Positions 856 to 27,761 of a DNA stretch of 27,874 nucleotides are shown one piece after another. Made by a program: the position numbers and the translations under genes. The stretch covers positions 1 through 27,874 of the IMG/VR virus record IMGVR_UViG_3300021364_000131; one strand, written 5' to 3'. The notes beneath the pieces were generated by a model. It searched no databases. It was not told the origin of the DNA and saw nothing but the letters and a program-made list of their open reading frames with translations. Positions within the stretch are counted from its first letter, which is position 1; the number at the start of each line of letters is the position of its first letter. Origin of the DNA: a virus.

Positions 856-932
856 TGGTGATTCCGGGAGGACTCGAACCCCCAACCTACTGATTAGAAG
901 TCAGTTGTTCTATCCAGTTGAACTACGGAACC
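856..932 (-). tRNA. tRNA-Arg (anticodon TCT), CCA encoded
   Basis: Cloverleaf read on the minus strand. Acceptor GGTTCCG pairs with CGGAATC, with one G-T pair, followed by discriminator A and an encoded CCA. The anticodon stem ACTGA/TCAGT encloses loop CTTCTAA, so the anticodon is TCT and reads AGA. The T-loop has the normal TTCGAGT. AGA is a favoured arginine codon in AT-rich phages, so the tRNA plausibly supplements the host. Its first base directly follows the stop codon of the upstream gene, and a gene begins 5 nt after the CCA. Confidence 0.95.
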
Positions 933-1175
933 TTAATCCTCTTTTTTTCTTTCTTCGATTTGACGAGTTAGAGCATCTAAAATCACTTGGTTTACAACCT
1001 TACCAAGTTCACTACCATCTACCTCATCCTCATGATATAGTTCATAAGTTAAAATACCGCCCCCTGACCCATCAGGATGATCATCTATCTTAATGTCTGA
1101 TATTTGAAACTCTGTACCTGCCATATCATAACCGTCTGGCACCTTAAAGGTTTCTTTCTCTGAAATGTTAGTCAT
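933..1175 (-). CDS. acidic small protein, unknown
   Basis: An 80-residue acidic protein with a Gly-rich centre (HPDGSGGGILTYEL) and a charged, helical C-terminus (RQIEERKKED). The ATG at 1175 overlaps the stop of the 43-residue gene upstream. The TAA stop at 935-933 abuts the first base of tRNA-Arg at 932, so 5' tRNA processing would trim the message right at its stop codon. No family is recognised. The conserved-looking GxEFQISDI segment could be a beta strand pair. Confidence 0.72.
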   Translation of the reverse strand: MTNISEKETFKVPDGYDMAGTEFQISDIKIDDHPDGSGGGILTYELYHEDEVDGSELGKVVNQVILDALTRQIEERKKED

Positions 1176-1303
1176 TTGTATGTTCCATCTAGTTTATAGT
1201 GTTTGTAGTTGTAAATAGCAGAGTCAAAAGATATAATCCTACCATATCCCTTTTTACGTAACTGTATATACCATCTATAAAAATGAATAAAGTTATCAAT
1301 CAT
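1172..1303 (-). CDS. 43-residue basic aromatic protein, starts at tRNA 3' end
   Basis: Minus-strand frame from the ATG at 1303-1301 to the TGA at 1174-1172, giving a peptide beginning MIDNFIHFYRWYIQLRKKGY, rich in Tyr and Lys. The ATG follows the encoded CCA (1304-1306) of the upstream tRNA with no base between. The only SD-like bases (AGGA) lie inside the tRNA acceptor stem. The stop overlaps the next ATG (ATGA). The overlap and the amino-acid composition support a real gene. The function is unknown. Confidence 0.6.
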   Translation of the reverse strand: MIDNFIHFYRWYIQLRKKGYGRIISFDSAIYNYKHYKLDGTYK

Positions 1304-1397
1304 TGGTAGTCCTGACAGGATTCGAACCTGTATCGCTCTCTAATCTGGAGACTGTGCTGAATATAAACCAGGTGTTTTACCATTAAACTACAGGACT
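1304..1397 (-). tRNA. tRNA with long variable region, tentative anticodon TAT (Ile)
   Basis: Acceptor AGTCCTG pairs perfectly with CAGGACT, then discriminator A and an encoded CCA. The D stem GTTT/AAAC and the T arm ACAGG-TTCGAAT-CCTGT are normal. The best anticodon arm is CTGG-TTTATAT-TCAG (four pairs, the fifth a C-C mismatch), which gives anticodon TAT. About 24 nt then remain in the variable region, able to form TCTC/GAGA. Long variable arms normally mark Leu, Ser or Tyr tRNAs, not Ile. A second candidate loop (CAGATTA) lacks U33. The tRNA call is firm, the isotype is not. Confidence 0.75.
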
Positions 1398-1399
1398 GT

Positions 1400-1475
1400 T
1401 GGTACTCGGTGAGAGATTCGAACTCCCGACAACTCCGTTATGAGCGGAGGGTTCTAACCACTGAACTAACCGAGT
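1400..1475 (-). tRNA. tRNA-Met or tRNA-Ile2 (anticodon CAT), CCA encoded
   Basis: Acceptor ACTCGGT pairs with ACCGAGT, followed by A and CCA. The anticodon stem CTCCG/CGGAG holds loop CTCATAA, so the anticodon is CAT. The T arm is GGGAG-TTCGAAT-CTCTC with one G-T pair. CAT can be elongator Met, or Ile2 if C34 is converted to lysidine. The sequence alone does not decide. It is separated by 2 nt from each neighbouring tRNA. Confidence 0.93.
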
Positions 1476-1477
1476 GT

Positions 1478-1563
1478 TGGTACGAGCGGGGGGACTTGAA
1501 CCCCCACGACCTATGGTCAACGGATTTTAAGTCCGTTGCGTCTACCGATTCCGCCACGCTCGC
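1478..1563 (-). tRNA. tRNA-Leu (anticodon TAA), CCA encoded
   Basis: A class II tRNA with acceptor GCGAGCG/CGCTCGT (terminal G-T), anticodon stem ACGGA/TCCGT around CTTAAAA giving TAA, a medium variable arm (GACCATAGGTC), discriminator A and an encoded CCA. It reads UUA, the Leu codon favoured in AT-rich genomes. It is first in transcription order of the four clustered tRNAs and lies 6 nt after the stop of the gene at 1570-1809. Confidence 0.95.
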
Positions 1564-7353: not shown

Positions 7354-7873
7354 TTAAAGGCTCTCTCTTGATACCAGTAATCTCGTCTTTAATACGTTGG
7401 TATTCCTCAGCCATCTCACGTTGATTTTCGAGAGTGTCATTAAGAAAAGCAATCCTGAGTCTACTGTAAAAATTTTTCCAAACAGGACCGTGAGGTTTAC
7501 ACCTAAAACGATTTATCTTATATGAATAGTACTGTAATGCGTGTGCTATCTCATGCAAAATTACCATATCTAGTCTATCATAAGTTCTGCGAGTATAAAA
7601 GCCCCCAATAGCAGGATGATCATCAAAAGATTTATATTCATACACTCTGTAAATTTCACCCTTATAGTCACGACAAAGATGATTCATAGCAATATTAATT
7701 CCAGGACCATCGGCATACATTCCTCCACGAGAGGAACGACGTTTAGGATCCCAATCTAGTTTTACACTACCAAGTTTGAAGTTTTTATATATCTCTTGCT
7801 GACAATACTCCTCGACTTGACGAATGTAGTCATTAGCGTATTTATTCCACTTTGCACGTTCAATACTATTCAT
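7331..7873 (-). CDS. SprT-like zinc metalloprotein
   Basis: 180 residues. The zinc-protease helix HEIAHALQ appears at about residue 107, and the third ligand is likely the His in KPHGPVWKNFYSRL, as in SprT/Spartan peptidases (HExxH...H). A basic KRRSSRGGMYADG segment precedes it. SprT-like proteins act on DNA-bound proteins in eukaryotes, and in bacteria and phages the target is unknown. There is no zinc ribbon at the C-terminus. The ATG overlaps the apt stop (ATGA), and the gene's end overlaps the radical SAM start. Confidence 0.82.
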   Translation of the reverse strand: MNSIERAKWNKYANDYIRQVEEYCQQEIYKNFKLGSVKLDWDPKRRSSRGGMYADGPGINIAMNHLCRDYKGEIYRVYEYKSFDDHPAIGGFYTRRTYDRLDMVILHEIAHALQYYSYKINRFRCKPHGPVWKNFYSRLRIAFLNDTLENQREMAEEYQRIKDEITGIKREPLIARAASK

Positions 7874-8376
7874 GATATGTGCCTCAATGCTATAACATTG
7901 TCTAAAGAGTTTATTTGAGTAAGATTTAAGATAGTAACATAACCCACTACTTTTGCTCCTGATTTTTCGACTAATTTTTTTGCTGCCTGTATACTGCCAC
8001 CTGTAGCAATTAGATCATCTGCAATTAAAACTCGACTTGTGTGACCAAATATACCTTCCTGCAAAACTAACGTATCAGAACCATACTCAAGTTCGTAGGG
8101 TTCTTCAATAAGATCGCCAGGATATTTGGCACCTTTTTTACGAATCATAGTGAAAGGAAGACTCATAGCATGAGATAGTGCTGCTCCAACTACAAAGCCT
8201 CTACTTTCGAGTCCCGCTATATTAGTGAGATGACAATGTTTTCTTTCACATTCATTAGCAAGTTGTTCAATATAGTAATTCCAAGCAGGACTGCTGAATA
8301 GGCTATTTAAATCATAAAAATCAATCCCAGGTTTTGGATAATCAGGTATTACTCTAATATAGTCTAAAATACTCAT
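7870..8376 (-). CDS. apt: adenine phosphoribosyltransferase
   Basis: 168 residues, slightly shorter than cellular Apt (about 180). The reaction is adenine + PRPP to AMP + PPi, a cytoplasmic purine salvage step. The PRPP-binding motif VLIADDLIATGGSIQAA is intact (acidic pair DD, then ATGGS). Upstream are PGIDFYDLNSLF, AGLESRGFVVGAAL and the flexible-loop region MIRKKGAKYPGDLI, all in the family order. The start overlaps the preceding stop (ATGA). Salvage of host purines would feed phage DNA synthesis. Confidence 0.93.
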   Translation of the reverse strand: MSILDYIRVIPDYPKPGIDFYDLNSLFSSPAWNYYIEQLANECERKHCHLTNIAGLESRGFVVGAALSHAMSLPFTMIRKKGAKYPGDLIEEPYELEYGSDTLVLQEGIFGHTSRVLIADDLIATGGSIQAAKKLVEKSGAKVVGYVTILNLTQINSLDNVIALRHIS

Positions 8377-26653: not shown

Positions 26654-26676
26654 GTGAGGACGTTGATCGTCCTCAC
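26654..26676 (-). promoter_or_regulatory. 5' leader hairpin of pstS mRNA (possible terminator)
   Basis: Stem GTGAGGACG/CGTCCTCAC with a 5-nt loop. It begins 7-8 nt after the -10 box, so it would be the first structure of the transcript. It is followed by ATTTTATTAGG on the minus strand and TTTTT on the plus strand. It might stabilise the 5' end, or stop read-through from the upstream tRNA unit. Confidence 0.7.
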
Positions 26677-26727: not shown

Positions 26728-26812
26728 TGGCTCTGGGAGAAGGACTCGAACCTCCACGCCTCACGGCACACGAGAAACAATCGTGCGTGTCTGCCATTTC
26801 CACCACCCCAGA
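26728..26812 (-). tRNA. Leu-shaped tRNA with Asn-type anticodon GTT, CCA encoded
   Basis: An 85-nt cloverleaf. Acceptor TCTGGGG/TCCCAGA (first pair T-A, last G-T), discriminator G, CCA. The D arm GTGGAAATGGCAGACAC is the usual tRNA-Leu form. The anticodon stem CACGA/TCGTG has loop TTGTTTC, so positions 34-36 are GTT. A long variable arm GCC-GTGA-GGC is followed by the T arm GGAGG-TTCGAGT-CCTTC. T1-A72, G73 and GTT are features of tRNA-Asn, whereas the D arm and the variable arm are Leu-like. Position 37 is T, although a purine is the rule. It begins 7 nt after the stop of the synthetase-like gene. The tRNA fold is clear; the isotype is open. Confidence 0.85.
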
Positions 26813-26819
26813 GTTGTAA

Positions 26820-27659
26820 TTAAGCAGCTTTTGCTAATTCAAGAGTGTCTAAGGCAGCTATCATACGGGTCATTCCAATACCTCCTCCAACGCGAGGGAA
26901 GAAGTCAAACTCTAAAAACTTTTCTAATTCAGCTTCAACTCGCTCTTTGGTAAAAAGTTTATACAGTAGTTCACTGTACTCACCGTTAGTAATTGTATGG
27001 AAAGTATCTCGCATCATGTCAACATCAGTGCTTCTCTCTGCTGACCCAATTGTTTCCATGCCTCCAAGAATTACATCAATCTTTTTAGAGTGAACTCCGT
27101 CTTCATAACGACTCATGTTCCAGAAGGGAGAGGTCATCTCAGGAAAGTCCGTAATCATTGCAGAACCAAACTGCTTATACATAGCAGTTTCGTGTTCAGC
27201 TTCCATTTCGGTATCTGCACTAATACCAAAATGTTCCTGCCATTCTGCATATGTTTTCTCTGTTGGTTTATCAAACCCAAGATAATCACACAGCTCATAT
27301 TCCATGGCCTTAAGATCATCAATCGTACCAGGGAATTCAAATTCAAACATTGGAAAGATTATATCATGCCTACCAGGAATTGCGTTTGGCTCCTGTCTGT
27401 ATGAAGTCGAGACACAAAAAAAGCCCTCTGAATCGGGCTGGGATAACAGTTCATGTTCTAACCACATCTGGCCAGTTTGGGGAAGAGGCCAAACTTCTCC
27501 TGCGTAGTTATATGTGGCTACGTTAAAGGGGTCTTCACAAGCTGCAAGAATAGAGAGTCGATTTTGGGTGTGAACCTCTTTAAAACCTTTATCCATAAAA
27601 AAAGACCTTAAAAGGTCTACAGAGTGAGTGAATTTTGTGGGAGAAATTAGTTGAGTCAT
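26820..27659 (-). CDS. stand-alone class II aminoacyl-tRNA-synthetase-like core
   Basis: 279 residues from the ATG at 27659 with AAGGAAA upstream. The order is that of the Asp/Asn/Lys class II core: early helix and strand FFMDKGFKEVHTQNRL (20-35), PLPQTGQMWLEHELL (58-72, like PQSPQ of AspRS/AsnRS), and motif 2 STSYRQEPNAIPGRHDIIFP (84-103) with Arg88/Glu90. Then VILGGMETIGSAERS (196-210) and motif 3 RVGGGIGMTRMIAAL (256-270, Arg265). The N-terminal OB anticodon-binding domain is missing. Such truncated relatives include AsnA-type asparagine synthetases and other ligases, so the product may be a free amino acid or an aminoacylated acceptor. A tRNA gene follows directly. Confidence 0.85.
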   Translation of the reverse strand: MTQLISPTKFTHSVDLLRSFFMDKGFKEVHTQNRLSILAACEDPFNVATYNYAGEVWPLPQTGQMWLEHELLSQPDSEGFFCVSTSYRQEPNAIPGRHDIIFPMFEFEFPGTIDDLKAMEYELCDYLGFDKPTEKTYAEWQEHFGISADTEMEAEHETAMYKQFGSAMITDFPEMTSPFWNMSRYEDGVHSKKIDVILGGMETIGSAERSTDVDMMRDTFHTITNGEYSELLYKLFTKERVEAELEKFLEFDFFPRVGGGIGMTRMIAALDTLELAKAA

Positions 27660-27709: not shown

Positions 27710-27738
27710 ATTATAGTTGAAAGATGAGCATAGTGCAA
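27710..27738 (-). promoter_or_regulatory. sigma70-type promoter TTGCAC-17-TATAAT
   Basis: The -35 TTGCAC (27738-27733), a 17-bp spacer and a perfect -10 TATAAT (27715-27710) give a leader of about 45 nt for the synthetase-like gene. An inverted repeat GCATAGT/ACTATGC (27728-27734 and 27753-27759) overlaps the -35 and may be an operator or the upstream gene's terminator stem. Confidence 0.7.
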
Positions 27739-27761
27739 ATTTATTTAATAAGACTATGCTA

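Follow-up and report, generated by a model that had tools for sequence, protein, structure and literature searches.

In this study, we identified X, a 279-aa AsnRS-like class II catalytic core encoded directly upstream of a type II tRNA-Asn-like gene in IMG/VR record IMGVR_UViG_3300021364_000131, which was analyzed over its full length of 27,874 nt and is referred to here as the window. We consider, with slightly less than even confidence, that X is an AsnRS-derived, Asn/Asp-activating ligase of pyrimidine synthesis and that the tRNA serves X. The components of this explanation carry different weights. A role of X in pyrimidine synthesis is likely, action on Asn rather than Asp is an even call, and the balance is just as level for the tRNA working with X rather than in decoding. 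X probably bypasses the CarAB-PyrB-PyrC steps.

The gene for X lies on the minus strand at 27659..26820 and was defined by its ORF, Pfam and PHROG matches, an AF2 model, and fold comparison. Its stop codon (26820-26822) is followed by a 7-nt spacer (26813-26819, minus; sequence and ARAGORN) and then by the 85-nt tRNA gene, including the encoded CCA (26728-26812, minus; ARAGORN, Rfam, and family comparison). The earlier note on this DNA had described a 279-residue class II core without an anticodon-binding domain that stops 7 nt before an 85-nt tRNA, and the ORF, Pfam, and ARAGORN results confirm this description. It had also placed the pair behind its own promoter, a claim that was not supported: promoter-like hexamers upstream of X (TTTGCA-18-TATAAT, 27710-27739, minus) are not above chance, as the promoter scan of the X-tRNA region gave four sites against 3.8 expected. 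A probable terminator past the X-tRNA transcript, a 9-bp hairpin with T runs that would work on either strand, was located at 26654-26676 by a terminator scan that found five terminator-like sites in the region against 1.2 expected by chance.

X matched the Pfam domain tRNA-synt_2 (class II D, K, and N synthetases) at 58.8 bits against a cut-off of 25, with no other domain, and is a member of PHROG 29758 (437 bits; function not annotated). It consists of the core only, without the N-terminal OB-fold anticodon-binding domain, and its alignment to AsnRS begins past that domain. At E 1e-3, the X of the window matched neither the NCBIfam AsnRS model nor the curated AsnA models; its best NCBIfam match was aspartate--tRNA(Asn) ligase, at 31.9 bits against a cut-off of 353. 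The best fold match of the AF2 model (pLDDT 94) was AsnRS (Z 26.9, 2.1 A over 247 residues), followed by AspRS (Z 25.6) and archaeal AsnA (Z 23.3). The class II motif residues R88 and E90 (motif 2) and R265 (motif 3) are invariant. E68 and E106 are of the AsnRS type in all X proteins compared, whereas AspRS has Q and D at these positions, and Q64 and E106, pocket residues expected to hold a free alpha-amino group, are retained. Judged from its sequence and predicted structure, X is a stand-alone core that originated within the AsnRS/AspRS branch of the class II synthetases.

X thus resembles the class IIb enzyme AsnRS, the source of its best PDB matches, in catalytic fold, motifs 1-3, and E68/E106 type. 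Besides lacking the OB-fold domain, it differs from AsnRS in having only about 20% identity, an EDP sequence in place of EGG/EGA in the flipping loop, and new residues N181 and K193, and X genomes often have a separate AsnRS. The residues invariant in X relative to AsnRS and AspRS are E42-D43-P44 of the flipping loop, N181, K193, and R256, the last occupying the place of the His before motif 3. These residues are common to phage and cellular X; therefore, the small-molecule chemistry of the two groups is probably the same.

ARAGORN called the RNA gene of the window as tRNA-Asn(GTT). The Rfam tRNA model scored it at 39.2 bits in a local scan (gathering score 29); a fast whole-window Rfam scan did not detect it, and its single-sequence MFE fold was no better than those of shuffles (z = -0.43). 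Its sequence is TCTGGGG-TG-GTG-GAAATGGCAGA-CAC-G-CACGA-TTGTTTC-TCGTG-TGCCGTGAGGCGT-GGAGG-TTCGAGT-CCTTC-TCCCAGA-GCCA. The acceptor stem TCTGGGG/TCCCAGA provides U1-A72, and A72, the discriminator G73 (26731), and the encoded CCA (26728-26730) were read directly at 26728-26732 (minus). The D arm (GTGGAAATGGCAGACAC) is of the Leu type, and the variable arm has 13 nt. The anticodon loop UUGUUUC contains the anticodon GUU (26776-26778, minus; ARAGORN and direct reading) and U at position 37 (26775, minus; direct reading). Reading of the sequence and the Rfam match bear out what had been claimed for this RNA, namely a Leu-type D arm, a long variable arm, U1-A72, G73, GTT, and a pyrimidine at position 37. 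Compared with bacterial tRNA-Asn, it has the expected cloverleaf with GUU, G73, and U1-A72 but lacks the short type I variable loop (the arms of its family have 11-39 nt) and carries U37 instead of A37 (t6A37). tRNAs that read ANN codons have A at position 37.

A family of 94 distinct X-linked tRNAs was parsed with no anticodon filter applied; counting distinct RNAs is preferable because some contigs are near copies. G73 is present in all 94, U1-A72 in 93, and GUU in 92, the remaining two looking like misparses, while 18 different acceptor strands occur and the variable arm ranges from 11 to 39 nt. At position 37, 71 of these RNAs have U, 6 have C, and 15 have A, so that a pyrimidine is found in 77 (~80%), compared with 126 purines and 3 U in the other tRNAs of the same phage loci. 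Comparative pairing established the cloverleaf: in an alignment of 39 sequences, every one of the 780 pair cells holds a standard pair, and 13 of the 20 pairs show two-sided changes. The closest tRNAs outside the family, counting ARAGORN-mislabelled members as part of it, are tRNA-Leu, which supports a body of apparent Leu type. A Leu tRNA with a misread anticodon, or a normal Leu anticodon reached by another fold, is ruled out by the covariation-fixed fold and the invariant G73. ARAGORN calls of Asp(atc), Glu(ctc), Ile(aat), and '???' for relatives with variable arms of 26-39 nt are misfolds, for which the structural parse gives GUU. In bacteria, Asn identity is determined by the anticodon and G73, with G73 also serving as an antideterminant against LeuRS (PMC9976931); amidation of Asp-tRNA-Asn is directed by U1-A72, according to work cited in that paper (PMC9976931). 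In two X-linked tRNAs (loci L033 and L053), C33 replaces the near-universal U33.

X relatives and their tRNAs are common in marine viromes, with at least 596 related stretches found by a protein search in one scan of a viral collection. A GUU type II tRNA lies within 700 nt downstream of X in 170 of 185 phage-type loci; the pair is a recurring unit, and homologues of X do sit beside a tRNA. The cultured cyanophages P-SSM2, P-SSM5, and P-SSM7 also carry it, with X annotated as 'tRNA ligase' (PSSM7_129 in P-SSM7), and the pair is therefore directly testable. In the P-SSM2 RefSeq record, tRNA-Asn PSSM2_199 is placed at L082 8825-8910 (NC_006883.2 164094-164179), about 2 kb from the X-linked tRNA, which is found in the sequence directly behind X at L082 6814-6899; these tRNA coordinates look stale because two genome versions differ by ~2 kb in coordinates. 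A search for the tRNA only, with a pattern built from the main clade that divergent tRNAs may escape, returned 80 contigs. X is directly upstream on the same strand in 78 of them, mostly 13-98 nt away; in the remaining two, the contig extends just 372 and 96 nt further upstream, too short to tell. In a maximum-likelihood tree of X relatives, tRNA-bearing X occupies three separated places, one of them a distant clade (L177, L213, and L275) with A1-U72 and no encoded CCA. X from Pasteurella, Rhodospirillaceae, and Midichloriaceae forms the sister group of the main phage clade at modest support.

X is found in the absence of the tRNA as well. Several phage sublineages (L004/L022, L038/L067, and L031/L050/L054/L080) have no tRNA beside X; their larger records contain no type II tRNA-Asn, and a 187-kb and a 117-kb phage record carrying tRNA-less X contain no tRNA-Asn of any kind. 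No X-adjacent tRNA was found in bacterial and archaeal relatives, save in contigs resembling phage in bins. In 27 cellular X genomes searched for the special tRNA, the top model matches were tRNA-Leu (ARAGORN) with at most 71 bits, compared with about 113 bits for X-linked tRNAs. The dependence is one-sided: the tRNA needs X, and X does not need the tRNA. Since tRNA-less X is common, the tRNA is not needed for the basic function of X, and the one-sided dependence fits the role of an accessory partner. The proposal of an enzyme with its dedicated acceptor RNA therefore stands in part, with the tRNA tied to X and Asn determinants kept over 18 acceptor stems, yet X does not share this dependence. 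Charging outside translation, which had also been suggested, fits the pyrimidine at position 37. The huge phages L084 and L085 (LR756501 and LR756508) encode a diverged X (44-51% identical) with no linked tRNA and have many tRNA genes of their own.

The tRNA might instead be a passenger, either an ordinary phage tRNA-Asn in a heritable cassette with X or a signal for 3' processing of the X mRNA. Clustering and mobility are common among phage tRNA genes, and X persists without the tRNA. This reading is nevertheless very improbable. No copy of the tRNA was found away from X, its stems show compensatory pairing, and its identity elements stay nearly invariant across 18 acceptor stems. It also follows X in distant clades that differ in their acceptors, and neither GUU nor G73 would be needed in a processing signal. 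Phage-encoded tRNA-Asn likewise has GUU, G73, and U1-A72, whereas the X-linked tRNA has a type II body, an 11-39 nt arm, and mostly a pyrimidine at position 37, and is found only beside X.

In the main rival explanation, X would act in protein synthesis as a miniature AsnRS and load Asn onto its own tRNA, forming with it a self-contained Asn decoding cassette that could, for example, resist host anticodon nucleases or host control. The AsnRS-like fold and pocket, the obligate tie of the tRNA to X, and the retention of G73, GUU, and U1-A72 agree with such an enzyme, and many cassettes sit in tRNA arrays. On the other hand, X has no anticodon-binding domain despite the invariant GUU, and position 37 differs from that of the other tRNAs of the same loci. 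X is also present in the two large phage records without any tRNA-Asn, and cellular X always lacks the tRNA; a full AsnRS scoring over the cut-off is encoded by half of these cells. The link to pyrimidine genes described below would be left unexplained. We regard a translational AsnRS as rather unlikely.

The relatives of X in bacteria and archaea are about 50-68% identical, and 19 of the 72 cellular loci covered by a homology search have a pyr gene no more than 5 kb from X. The gene order is pyrD, X, pyrF, pyrE in Pasteurella atlantica, X-pyrF-pyrE-pyrD in Midichloriaceae, and X-pyrE-pyrF in gammaproteobacteria; in Chitinophagaceae and Myxococcota, pyrD and UMP synthase are beside X. CarAB-PyrB-PyrC are generally regarded as the opening steps of de novo pyrimidine synthesis. 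Among 30 X genomes, most of them MAGs whose completeness is not known (and biosynthesis is often missing from CPR genomes), ATCase was found over the curated cut-off in 5, CarB in 3, dihydroorotase in 4 (TIGR00857) or 0 (TIGR00856), and PyrD in 22, with no PyrD match over the cut-off in the other 8. ATCase, CarB, and PyrD were over the cut-off in all 14 control genomes. In a Chitinophagaceae sample, ATCase was matched in 241 of 246 genomes, and the sole X genome is among the five without a match. X thus has the profile of a functional stand-in, with later pyr genes nearby and the usual early genes mostly absent.

ATCase is absent from all 81 Pasteurellaceae sampled, and P. atlantica is therefore at most a gain of the gene set and not a replacement; the order pyrD-X-pyrF-pyrE in an ATCase-less family would be sensible if these genes complete a route. 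Apparent ATCase remnants in P. atlantica and L102 are actually OTCase adjoining arcC or argC. In many CPR genomes, X is flanked by dus (dihydrouridine synthase) and dnaX and not by pyr genes (e.g., L093, L098, L103, L108, L111, L113, and L133). In L117, L118, L150, and L151, X adjoins an argininosuccinate lyase-like gene, and two of these loci also have an uncharacterised amidohydrolase.

These gene contexts bear on two uses that had been suggested for the pair, recoding and plain asparagine supply. The former is unlikely and the latter not the best reading because X is tied to pyr genes and to the absence of CarB, PyrB, and PyrC; recoding was also rejected because 92 of 94 distinct anticodons are GUU, a sense anticodon. 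In the supply reading, X would be an AsnA-type asparagine synthetase (Asp + NH3 + ATP -> Asn), and the extra tRNA-Asn would raise the Asn-tRNA supply of the phage. Archaeal AS-AR (PDB 3P8T/3REU) and bacterial AsnA are, like X, stand-alone class IIb-type cores of ~290 aa with small-molecule chemistry, and archaeal AsnA is known to be related to AsnRS and has no anticodon-binding domain. Some members of the X family match the NCBIfam asparagine synthetase A model, weakly, below their AsnRS/AspRS matches and far under the cut-offs. The fold match of X to these enzymes is weaker than that to AsnRS and AspRS, and X differs from them in its pyrimidine-synthesis setting and in its tRNA partner in phages. 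For asparagine supply, an ordinary type I tRNA-Asn would suffice. An asparagine synthetase is therefore improbable, as it leaves the pyr-gene neighbourhood and the missing early enzymes unexplained.

In phages, homologues of PyrE, PyrD, PyrB, or PyrF are near X in 33 of 193 loci. The order X-tRNA-PyrE occurs in L003, L013, L019, L199, and L235, and X-PyrD in L050. A marine phage operon (L067 5132-10117) brings purine and pyrimidine genes together in the order ATCase-X-purF-purB-purE homologues, where ATCase beside X fits a later, PyrC/dihydroorotase-like step better. Short divergent PyrE-like (125-159 aa) and PyrD-like (~235 aa) proteins accompany X in phages and alphaproteobacteria (e.g., L105 6416-7567, L050 6857-7549, and L038 5510-5884), and standard annotation may miss them because their Pfam scores are low.

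The L067 operon raises the possibility of an ATP-driven dihydroorotase substitute, in which X would adenylate the beta-carboxylate of N-carbamoyl-aspartate for closure to dihydroorotate and the tRNA would be unrelated to the chemistry. Activation of a beta-carboxylate is AsnA chemistry (PMC3532385), most X genomes have no dihydroorotase, and an additional carboxylate could be bound by K193 and R256, two positively charged residues specific to X. X has a synthetase-like fold without homology to the CarB, ATCase, or dihydroorotase folds (tRNA-synt_2 being its only Pfam match). Against such a substitute, most X genomes also lack ATCase and CarB and would have no supply of carbamoyl-aspartate, the pocket residues Q64 and E106 for a free alpha-amino group are retained, and no reason is given for the linked tRNA-Asn. 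We consider this alternative quite unlikely.

We propose an asparagine-based pathway for X. X would activate asparagine (or aspartate) with ATP and would replace the first three steps of pyrimidine synthesis (CarAB, PyrB, and PyrC), after which PyrD, PyrE, and PyrF would complete UMP. The simplest one-enzyme chemistry would be L-Asn + HCO3- + ATP -> L-dihydroorotate, as both ring nitrogens are already present in Asn and insertion of a carbonyl is all that is required. Such a route needs no carbamoyl phosphate, ATCase, or dihydroorotase, which, together with the Asn-type pocket, suggests conversion of Asn to dihydroorotate; this exact reaction is offered tentatively and is doubtful in its details. 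In most phages, X is coupled to its own tRNA, which looks built to receive Asn because it retains G73, GUU, and U1-A72. The tRNA may receive Asn from AsnRS or by Asp charging and GatCAB amidation, and G73 should keep its Leu-type body from LeuRS. It has given up the purine at position 37, a feature for good decoding, and may carry Asn to X or report Asn charging to X rather than mainly serve the ribosome.

Several observations stand against this explanation: 8 of the 30 X genomes have no PyrD match over the cut-off and 5 keep ATCase, U33 and GUU, which are useful for decoding, are retained, and 15 of the 94 tRNAs have A37. The frequent location of X-tRNA cassettes inside tRNA arrays suggests translation. 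In its most specific form, a dihydroorotate synthetase making the ring in one step from Asn, bicarbonate, and ATP would take the place of carbamoyl phosphate synthetase, ATCase, and dihydroorotase in phages, bacteria, and archaea of scattered occurrence, and a private non-decoding tRNA-Asn would supply or gate Asn in phages, coupling charging to nucleotide synthesis; we regard this full version as rather unlikely.

Stand-alone synthetase paralogues with metabolic roles are already known (AsnA, HisZ, and EpmA), whereas we know of no earlier case of a paralogue that is linked to early pyrimidine steps and coupled to a private tRNA. EpmA (GenX/PoxA), HisZ, and GluQRS are, like X, synthetase paralogues without an anticodon domain that perform other chemistry; they differ from X in their amino acids, partners, and gene contexts and have no dedicated linked tRNA gene. 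PylRS and tRNA-Pyl likewise unite a synthetase-type gene and a dedicated tRNA of unusual shape, but X exists without its tRNA, so that the two partners are not always together as in a PylRS-type pair, and X is tied to pyrimidine genes and its tRNA has a sense Asn anticodon. We found no literature on X, on such an enzyme-tRNA pair, or on an Asn-based route to dihydroorotate, with coverage of subscription journals being incomplete.

If X replaces the early steps, it would fill a gap in UMP synthesis for CPR bacteria, symbionts, and genomes with only late pyr genes and would provide phages with a one-gene nucleotide boost. Phage tRNAs are usually explained by codon usage or defence, and a tRNA dependent on a metabolic enzyme would represent a new role for them. 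Together, the enzyme and its tRNA hint that asparagine, tRNA, and pyrimidine synthesis are connected in a way not yet described.

Two other regions of the window were noted. An adenine phosphoribosyltransferase-like gene, read by eye at 7870-8376 (minus), is another nucleotide-salvage gene in the same phage. A four-tRNA array (Arg-TCT, Ile-TAT, Met-CAT, and Leu-TAA) lies at 856-1563 (minus), and its tRNA-Ile-TAT has an unusually long variable region of 24 nt.
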